From a virus, in IMG/VR virus record IMGVR_UViG_3300028806_000027, positions 1 to 35,340 of that record: DNA of 35,340 bases, one strand, 5' to 3'. The translations under genes were made by a program, and so were the position numbers. The notes beneath the pieces are model-generated. The model had not been told where the DNA came from and did no database searches. It saw only the letters and a list, made by a program, of their open reading frames with translations. Shown here one piece after another: positions 2,206 to 14,328 of this stretch. Within the stretch, counting starts at the first letter, position 1, and each line of letters starts with the position of its first letter.

Positions 2206-2421
2206 ATGACTCCTGAAGAAGTAAAAGAATATTTTAGTACAACTTATAATTTCCAAAAAGTTACCAAAATGTCAAATAACACGTTATGCAACTGGCTAAA
2301 GTGGGGATATGTGCCTTATCTATCTCAAAAGAAAATAGAAATCCTAACGAATAGCAAGTTAATCGCTGAATGGCATCCAAAAGAATTAGAAGTAAGAGAG
2401 AAGGGGTATAGTCATGATTGA
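2206..2421 (+). CDS. Cro-like small HTH regulator
   Basis: A 71-residue protein with the shape of Cro/YdaS-type phage regulators: MTPEEVKEYFSTTYNFQKVTKMSNNTLCNWLKWGYVPYLSQKKIEILT. The HTH covers residues ~14-40 (SNNTLCNWLKWGYVP is the recognition helix and turn), followed by a helix SQKKIEILTNSKL and a basic-acidic tail. It is transcribed divergently from the RecE-like gene with palindromic operators in between, as expected for a regulator of early genes. The ribosome site is poor (no clear AGGA before the ATG). It overlaps the next gene by 8 nt. Cro-like is an inference from pattern and position. Confidence 0.62.
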   Translation: MTPEEVKEYFSTTYNFQKVTKMSNNTLCNWLKWGYVPYLSQKKIEILTNSKLIAEWHPKELEVREKGYSHD

Positions 2422-2563
2422 TTTTAAAATTGGCGATGAGGCTTTTTTTTTACGTAACATAAGATTTGACAGTGACACAGATATATCCGAAATAATTTTA
2501 AAATTTGAAGAAGTTGAATCATGCCATGATTTAGACTATCTGAATAAAAATCCAGGTGTTTAT

Positions 2564-2783
2564 TATCCGCGTCGTAAGACCTCGTGCTTTAGGTCGAGGA
2601 TATAAGACGCGAGTAAAAAAGTTTGCAAAGTAAATAATCTTTGCTATCCTGGTTCTTGTCGCCGATAACCAAGACGATCTACCGCCGGGCAGGCGGGATG
2701 TAATGCTTGTGGAGTGGAATGCATAAGCACCACTGTGAAGCAAGAACCGGAATCACCTTCCTTTAGGTCGGTGAGGATGTCAA
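2564..2783 (+). mobile_element. Non-autonomous IS200/IS605-like element, copy 1
   Basis: The sequence from 2570 to 2783 recurs at 14052-14265 with only two mismatches. The left subterminal hairpin is CCTCG (2580-2584) with CGAGG (2595-2599). The right hairpin is TCACC (2753-2757) with GGTGA (2770-2774). Both loops contain CTTTAGGT. The right hairpin is preceded by GAAT (2750-2753), and the element ends in TCAA (2780-2783), the same guide and cleavage tetranucleotides described for IS608. The left boundary is either 2570 (start of exact repeat) or 2564 (after GTTTAT, a TTTAT-type target as reported for IS606). No tnpA or tnpB is present. Confidence 0.72.
2651..2783 (+). ncRNA. Omega-RNA-like scaffold (copy 1), candidate
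   Basis: This region matches the position of a TnpB guide RNA: the 3' end of a tnpB-like frame plus the right end. A closing stem GGTTCTTG (2651-2658) with CAAGAACC (2741-2748) encloses the hairpin CCGCC-GGGCA-GGCGG (2682-2696) and a TGCTT/AAGCA plus GTGG/CCAC stem. The plus frame at 2661-2726 reads ADNQDDLPPGRRDVMLVEWNA then stop, like a TnpB C-terminus. If expressed, the guide would be the flank starting at 2784 (attaaatcaaaacaag). Expression is not shown. Confidence 0.5.
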
Positions 2784-2829
2784 ATTAAATCAAAACAAGA
2801 ATGCATAGATGCTTTCAAACGGAGATTAG

Positions 2830-3021
2830 ATGAACTTTAAAGAGGGCGATATAGTTTATTATTTTGTGCCGAATAAAGTAGATTTTAAACTAAAGGTTAA
2901 AATATTTATGATTATTGTTAATGATGATCTTGATGACGAGTATTTATGCAAGGATCTAAAAACTAATTCTGTTTTTCATGTATCTAGCCGCGATTTAAAA
3001 ACTTTAAAAGAAGTTGGATGA
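2830..3021 (+). CDS. Small F-K-x-G-D family protein
   Basis: A 63-residue protein, MNFKEGDIVYYFVPNKVDFK..., with GGAG 5 nt before ATG. Its N-terminus FKEGDIVYYF closely matches FKAGDIVYWF of the gene at 17135 and, more loosely, FKIGDEAFFL of the interrupted gene upstream, so these may be paralogues. The alternating hydrophobic pattern suggests a small beta-barrel (SH3/KOW-like) fold. Role unknown. Confidence 0.7.
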   Translation: MNFKEGDIVYYFVPNKVDFKLKVKIFMIIVNDDLDDEYLCKDLKTNSVFHVSSRDLKTLKEVG

Positions 3022-13292: not shown

Positions 13293-13895
13293 ATGAAATG
13301 TTCAATAGATATATGTGATAGAGAAGCTAAAAAGAGAAATCTTTGCCTTGCGCATTATGAAAGATTCATAAGGAATGGAGAAGATTTTGATAGGTCGCCA
13401 ATTGTAGATGTTAAATGCATGAAATCAAAGTTTACATCCAAAATTGGGATGCCAAACGATAATGGTTGCATGGAATGGCTGGGATGGAAAAACAAACATG
13501 GTTATGGGAAGTTCAGTGTAGGTTCTAAATACGCATTTGCACATAGATATTCGTATGAATTTCATATTGGTGCGATACCAGTTGGATTGTTTGTTTGTCA
13601 TTCGTGCGATAATCGTGGGTGTGTAGCACCGCAGCACTTATGGTTAGGAACTAACATAGAAAATCAACAAGATATGCGGAATAAAGGAAGACAAAATCAT
13701 CATAGAGGGCCATTACCCAACATCCAGGGATTAAAGCATATCAATGCCAAACTAACTGAAGACAAAGTTAAAGATATAAAAATTAAACTACTCAAAGGCA
13801 TTAAAGGGACAATAATCGCAAGAAAGTATAATGTATCTGATCAGACCATATATGACATAAAAAATGGCAAAAATTGGAAGCATGTCAATATTTAG
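13293..13895 (+). CDS. HNH homing-type endonuclease
   Basis: 200 residues. The N-terminus has a zinc-knuckle-like CSIDICDREAKKRNLCLAHY, typical of phage HNH proteins. The HNH_3-type core runs NGCMEWLGWKNKHGYGKFSV, YAFAHRYSYEFHIGAIP, VCHSCDNRGCVAPQHLWLG and NIENQQDM (His ~110 and the CHSC...CVAPQHL zinc/active region). The C-terminus has a DNA-binding HTH (GTIIARKYNVSDQTIYDIKN). It begins 12 nt after terL with a weak ribosome site, the usual place for free-standing homing endonucleases that cut the neighbouring gene in related phages. Confidence 0.88.
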   Translation: MKCSIDICDREAKKRNLCLAHYERFIRNGEDFDRSPIVDVKCMKSKFTSKIGMPNDNGCMEWLGWKNKHGYGKFSVGSKYAFAHRYSYEFHIGAIPVGLFVCHSCDNRGCVAPQHLWLGTNIENQQDMRNKGRQNHHRGPLPNIQGLKHINAKLTEDKVKDIKIKLLKGIKGTIIARKYNVSDQTIYDIKNGKNWKHVNI

Positions 13896-13905: not shown

Positions 13906-14044
13906 AATAACTATGTTTACAATTTATAAAAAACAAAGCCCCAATAAAATTAGAGATATAAATATTGCTATTGAGTATCATAATACTGGCCAAAGTCTAC
14001 GTACGATAGGGGATAAATATGGTATGTCCAGTTCTAGAGTTTAT

Positions 14045-14265
14045 CATAATACGTCGTAAAACCTCGTGCTTTAGGTCGAGGATATAAGACGCGAGTAAAA
14101 AAGTTTGCAAAGTAAATAATCTTTGCTATGCTGGTTCTTGTCGCCGATAACCAAGACGATCTACCGCCGGGCAGGCGGGATGTAATGCTTGTGGAGTGGA
14201 ATGCATAAGCACCACTGTGAAGCAAGAACCGGAATCACCTTCCTTTAGGTCGGTGAGGATGTCAA
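14045..14265 (+). mobile_element. Non-autonomous IS200/IS605-like element, copy 2
   Basis: From 14052 to 14265 it is identical to 2570-2783 except for two single-base differences (A for G at 14060, G for C at 14131). Left hairpin 14062-14081, right hairpin 14235-14256, GAAT at 14232-14235, end TCAA at 14262-14265. It is in the same orientation as copy 1 and is also preceded by GTTTAT (14039-14044). No transposase is encoded. Confidence 0.72.
14133..14265 (+). ncRNA. Omega-RNA-like scaffold (copy 2), candidate
   Basis: It carries the same GGTTCTTG/CAAGAACC closing stem (14133-14140, 14223-14230), internal hairpins and tnpB-like terminal codons as copy 1. The sequence that would serve as guide starts at 14266 (cgatttaaaatgctaa) and differs from copy 1, as expected for insertion-site-defined guides. 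Activity would need a TnpB supplied by the host. Confidence 0.5.
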
Positions 14266-14328
14266 CGATTTAAAATGCTAAACTTAGCGTAAACATTAAC
14301 TTATTAACACCGTAAAGGAGTGATTCAA

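Follow-up and report, generated by a model that had tools for sequence, protein, structure and literature searches.

What is a short, gene-less sequence with the ends of an insertion sequence doing at two places in a phage genome, and does it carry a guide RNA? The window, by which we mean the whole stretch of DNA analyzed here, is a complete virus record of 35,340 bp in which RecT/exonuclease VIII, terminase, portal, and major head genes are present. Its sole long repeat family is a 214-nt sequence (2570-2783 and 14052-14265) with 99% identity between the two copies; 212 of the 214 aligned bases are identical, and the two substitutions are at 2578 (G/A) and 2648 (C/G). An earlier note had described the first copy, at 2564-2783, as an IS605-like element. 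The element is real and these coordinates proved nearly exact, 2564 being the base right after a TTAT. We put the probability at close to 90% that it is a non-autonomous IS200/IS605 element, an internal-deletion derivative that is mobile via TnpA in trans and bears a TnpB omega-RNA scaffold. Elements of this kind are known as PATEs (palindrome-associated transposable elements), the IS605 counterpart of MITEs.

TTAT lies immediately 5′ of both copies, at an offset from the core of the left end (LE) of -12 in copy 1 and -13 in copy 2. All 15 distinct relatives that we collected have TTAT at offset -12. Since the TTAT at 2560-2563 has the same offset as in these relatives, we placed the start of copy 1 at 2564 (Table 1). 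The bases from 2564 onward belong to the element, because a gene-less (solo) element in the gammaproteobacterial genome G444 matches past the TTAT, reading TTAT followed by CATCCGTGCCGTAAAACC where copy 1 has TTAT followed by TATCCGCGTCGTAAGACC. The initial bases are CATAATA in copy 2 (14045-14051) and TATCCG in copy 1, a difference that simple transposition does not explain. In neither copy are the two tips inverted copies of each other, so terminal inverted repeats are lacking, and comparison of the left flank with the right reveals no target-site duplication.

Table 1. Coordinates of the two element copies, their parts and the adjoining phage features
Feature	Coordinates	Strand	Description and basis
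Element copy 1	2564..2783	+	220 nt; repeat, boundary by TTAT and G444 solo element
Element copy 2	14045..14265	+	221 nt; after TTAT 14041-14044
TTAT flank left of copy 1	2560..2563	+	presumed TnpA cleavage site and TnpB transposon-adjacent motif
Left end (LE)	2564..2613	+	hairpin 2580-2599 with CTTTAG loop; BLASTN to LEs of full (L062, L076) and solo elements
Internal 58 nt	2614..2671	+	homologue not detected; contains hairpin
Omega-RNA-like scaffold, copy 1	2672..2783	+	covariance model R1, 75.4 bits, E 9.5e-19
Omega-RNA-like scaffold, copy 2	14154..14265	+	R1, 75.4 bits, E 9.5e-19; identical to copy 1 scaffold
Right end (RE)	2749..2783	+	GGAATC, hairpin with CTTTAG loop, GAGGATGTCAA; 34/35 identical to REs in G444
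Presumptive guide, copy 1	2784..2803	+	ATTAAATCAAAACAAGAATG, bases 3′ of element; position by analogy with ISDra2 reRNA (PMC8612924)
Presumptive guide, copy 2	14266..14285	+	CGATTTAAAATGCTAAACTT; sequence reading
Small phage gene interrupted by copy 1	2414..2840	+	direct sequence reading
Helix-turn-helix-like gene, 3′ end cut off by copy 2	13914..14044	+	homologues in L034, L011

The subterminal hairpins at both ends resemble those of IS605 elements. The LE hairpin reads CCTCG-TG-CTTTAG-GT-CGAGG. The right end (RE), with the sequence GGAATCACCTTCCTTTAGGTCGGTGAGGATGTCAA and its last base at 2783, has a hairpin at 2753-2772 that is preceded by GGAATC and followed by a TGTCAA tip, and the CTTTAG loop is common to the LE and RE hairpins. 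The features that the earlier note had singled out, namely matching hairpins, GAAT before the right hairpin, and a TCAA end, can all be read in these stretches (GAATC, TGTCAA, and the CTTTAG loops). Between the ends, the internal 58 nt gave no BLASTN match above noise. At 2625-2644, with an equivalent in copy 2, a hairpin with a T run after it resembles a minus-strand terminator and could halt antisense transcripts.

Neither TnpA nor TnpB could be encoded in an element of this length, and profile searches of all six frames, which recovered the positive controls, found neither gene in the window, as had been claimed for the element from its letters. Neither protein is encoded in the related phage loci searched. 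What the element does contain is a tnpB-like frame, T-A-G-Q-A-G-C-N-A-C-G-V-E-C-I-S-T-T-V-K-Q-E-P-E-S, that aligns with ...LAAGHAVLACGVDAVATTVKQEPLAV and the stop codon at the C terminus of a 398-aa TnpB in genome G153 (L072). At the DNA level, this tail (element positions 136-179) matches the 3′ end of the same TnpB gene with 91% identity over 45 nt, bearing out the proposal that the last ~22 codons of a tnpB-like frame are preserved. Peptide searches with the tnpB remnant gave no match, and exact RE and codon patterns had no match in viral contigs. Scans of genome contigs with the VKQEPES codon string returned a lone match, in Sphingomonadales (L058), which we rejected as chance.

A closed RNA-like fold had also been proposed. 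The minimum-energy fold of 2564-2783 is more stable than those of dinucleotide shuffles (z -3.88; 1 of 200 shuffles was equally good), and the scaffold alone has a z of -2.5. We then searched with a covariance model, R1, built from 11 TnpB-linked RNAs only; neither the window nor any gene-less element contributed to it. Both copies scored identically (Table 1), and this model-based search confirmed the predicted scaffold in each, in agreement with the earlier note. A sequence-only model of the R1 alignment scored 52.3 bits, so structure adds about 23 bits to the score, although the weighting of the two models differs. In copy 1, the scaffold comprises P1 (2682-2696; CCGCC-GGGCA-GGCGG), P2 (~2704-2742), the RE hairpin, and the tip. 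P1 varies in a compensatory manner: CCGCC/GGCGG in the window, CCGTG/CACGG in the solo elements of genome G133 and in phage L064, and CCGTA/TACGG in phage L115. An extra segment between P2 and the RE that is common to many TnpB-linked RNAs is absent in the window and in L064. In the phage contig L115 (IMGVR_UViG_3300044606_000055), the end of a tnpB-like frame is followed by a scaffold of the window element's subtype. By eye, we also considered whether TGCTT/AAGCA and GTGG/CCAC might form an H-type pseudoknot; the nested P2 hairpin is favored both by the model and by minimum-energy folds, and we do not propose the pseudoknot. Because there is no tnpB in cis, we refer to an omega-RNA-like scaffold and not to a proven omega-RNA.

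It is most improbable that the repeat is instead an unrelated structural RNA or a phage control region. No Rfam family reached its gathering threshold in the window (the best weak match, to HgcC [RF00062], was 15.8 bits against a gathering score of 50), and this could be taken in favor of an unrelated RNA. However, since the true TnpB-linked RNAs of L064 and L072 likewise fall below every Rfam threshold, the miss is uninformative. The homology to IS605 ends and scaffolds, the absence of the repeat from phage relatives, and the match to R1 all contradict an unrelated origin. The archaeal HgcC family resembles IS605 REs and TnpB omega-RNAs (30.2 bits for L064:2470-2548 and 24.7 bits for L072:1488-1568), and HgcC itself may be a TnpB guide RNA family.

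Relatives of the element were recovered in Pseudomonadota genomes and plasmids, both as full-length and as gene-less elements, the latter of about 190-350 nt. BLASTN at default thresholds in phages and plasmids returned nothing; lenient thresholds recovered the family, with the LE (first 40-45 nt) and RE matching plasmid-borne elements. A full IS200/IS605 element of Arsenophonus apicola (L062), with tnpA and tnpB, has ends in common with the window element, as do the gene-bearing elements L076 and L072. When 398 Pseudomonadota genomes were searched by pattern, tnpB elements whose RE is of this kind were found in G109, G133, G153, and G227. Elements with tnpA and tnpB, or with tnpB, thus share these ends, and the refuting outcome that the earlier note had named, a lack of such elements in any genome, did not occur. 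The BLASTN search that the earlier note had suggested for a parent succeeded only in part: gene-bearing elements sharing the ends were found, and a complete parent with all parts together was not. The nearest scaffold (91% over 45 nt) is in the class of G109, G133, and G153, and the nearest RE (34 of 35 positions) is in the gammaproteobacterium G444. The lack of a whole parent, the unmatched middle 58 nt, and the differing first bases count against the PATE reading, as do the unobserved empty site and the lack of a promoter belonging to the element.

The gene-less relatives vary in how closely they resemble an omega-RNA. Five gene-less copies, each 203-206 nt long, occur in genome G133; they are 90-100% identical to the copy used as query, have the same layout, and follow TTATCC or TTATTC. 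The E. coli IncI2 plasmid pL9-3 (L059 1501-1692, NZ_CP142047.1) carries a 192-nt gene-less IS605 element, and two Acinetobacter plasmids (L060 and L061) carry gene-less elements of 318 and 347 nt. With R1, the E. coli plasmid element scored 99.9 bits, the Acinetobacter elements 46-48 bits, and the G133 copies 22-34 bits. LEs like that of the pL9-3 element are present in many E. coli, Salmonella, and Klebsiella plasmids. In the class of G109, G133, and G153, R1 had 47 scaffold matches in 10 of the 78 genomes sampled, several of the weaker ones without detectable tnpB. R1 also shows that solo elements with such a scaffold are found repeatedly, in genomes unrelated to one another as well as in E. 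coli plasmids.

On direct reading, both copies appear to be insertions at unrelated sites, the empty site being unobserved at base level in relatives. The element is missing from 28 related phage records. The two parts of a small phage gene, 2414-2563 and 2784-2840, join in frame across copy 1, with ...NPGVY continuing into IKSKQECIDAFKRRLDEL and a stop codon. A homologue of this split gene, sought for an empty-site reading, was not found. If the insertion reading is true, the empty allele would resume as TTAT followed by ATTAAATC, i.e., TTTAT followed by ATTAAATCAAAACAAG. At the second site, the frame of the L034 homologue of the helix-turn-helix-like gene extends beyond the point at which copy 2 truncates it. 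Just upstream of copy 2 is an HNH endonuclease gene (13293-13895; PF13392, E 2.9e-9) that resembles homing endonucleases.

These sites bear on whether the element is a dead relic, a single insertion from a host that was copied by ordinary recombination and is now immobile and without a functional RNA. There are two copies only, their left-end bases differ, and the LE and RE stems contain mismatches. However, similar stem mismatches occur in full elements (such as the RE of L071), the tip and scaffold are intact, and the location of each copy at an unrelated site directly 3′ of TTAT is a signature of transposition. We therefore regard a relic as improbable. The RecT-like annealing protein and exonuclease VIII pair is encoded at 125-2173 and could favor recombination-based copying of inserted elements.

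The PATE reading implies the following history, for which the role of TnpA is drawn from IS200/IS605 biology (PMC8612924). An ancestor with tnpA and tnpB would have lost both genes by internal deletion, keeping the LE, the tnpB tail, and the RE, within which the omega-RNA scaffold of TnpB would be complete. The Y1 transposase TnpA, provided in trans by similarly ended elements of the host, would recognize the hairpins, excise the element as a single strand, and insert it 3′ of TTAT, giving two copies in the phage genome. We infer this mobilization in trans, a standard inference, from the anatomy, from what is known of PATEs, and from the presence of two copies at TTAT sites unrelated to each other. 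As both copies are oriented in sense with the flanking phage genes, read-through transcription would be expected to give an RNA ending in the scaffold and ~16-20 bases of flanking phage sequence. More speculatively, a host TnpB could load this RNA and cut empty alleles; the cleavage and retention through a host TnpB that the earlier note had envisaged are possible.

TnpB is thought to prevent the loss of IS605 elements by cutting the empty site. The element could be a working RNA-only parasite: the expressed omega-RNA, loaded by host TnpB, would cut element-free phage or sister genomes at TTAT plus guide, and repair would copy the element in, resulting in homing and retention. This would extend the PATE reading and is not its opposite. 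The scaffold is essentially intact and identical between the copies, both copies are sense to the flanking genes, and the phage encodes the RecT-like protein and exonuclease VIII. In addition, TnpB itself processes the 5′ ends of longer transcripts, and scaffolds of ~106 nt can be active (PMC10278001). Against this, a consensus scan found no promoter belonging to the element, and the guides have no target elsewhere in the window, in viral contigs, or in related phage loci. The near-identity of the two copies may reflect youth rather than selection, and the low scores and variable RE stems of the G133 solo siblings suggest drift once tnpB is gone. On balance, we consider such a parasite rather unlikely. 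Similarly, we consider it unlikely that the scaffold is a working stand-alone guide RNA that, charged by host TnpB, would drive the element's spread or retention, or would attack co-infecting phages with empty alleles, i.e., an RNA-only mobile element needing two trans-acting host proteins. The idea that TnpB is used in trans is nevertheless attractive and testable. A gene-less element with its ends and an intact scaffold in a phage would be a natural test of whether TnpB acts in trans for deletion derivatives, and the answer would indicate whether IS605 relics without genes travel passively or behave as guided parasites.

The hint that the element represents a new phage strategy was overstated, because IS605 end elements that lack TnpA and TnpB and keep the tnpB tail and RE have already been described (PMC7290912, PMC3119063). 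The PATE-like IS605 element of Halanaerobium hydrogeniformans has the same anatomy, with 28 nt of the LE including its hairpin, no tnpA, the final 58 nt of tnpB, and a whole 160-nt RE; it differs in being a single chromosomal copy in a bacterium and in belonging to another sequence family, and its description predates the finding that the RE encodes a guide RNA (PMC7290912). Haloquadratum walsbyi has many homogeneous PATEs that, like the window element, are short, transposase-free, and related to IS605 ends, with near-terminal palindromes and no target duplication, but they reside in archaeal chromosomes and the paper predates omega-RNA (PMC3119063). The solo elements that we identified (five in G133, and those in pL9-3, the Acinetobacter plasmids, and G444) likewise consist of an LE, a short middle, an omega-RNA-like scaffold, and an RE, are gene-less, and are flanked by TTAT; they differ in their length (192 to about 350 nt), in their location on chromosomes or plasmids, and, for the G133 copies, in scoring far lower as omega-RNA. 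As in the omega-RNA/reRNA of ISDra2 and others, which overlaps the tnpB 3′ end and the RE, the scaffold contains the RE hairpin and the guide would be the 3′ flank (PMC8612924, PMC10278001). In contrast to ISDra2, the window element has no tnpB in cis, its flank is TTAT rather than TTGAT, and TnpB binding is putative. TldRs, phage-encoded RNA-guided repressors derived from TnpB, are also phage-borne descendants of a TnpB/omega-RNA system; whereas TldR keeps the protein, in domesticated form, the window element has lost the protein and keeps the transposon ends (PMC13418256). The element is thus a further PATE, of a kind already known, and is notable for its residence in a phage and its intact guide scaffold.
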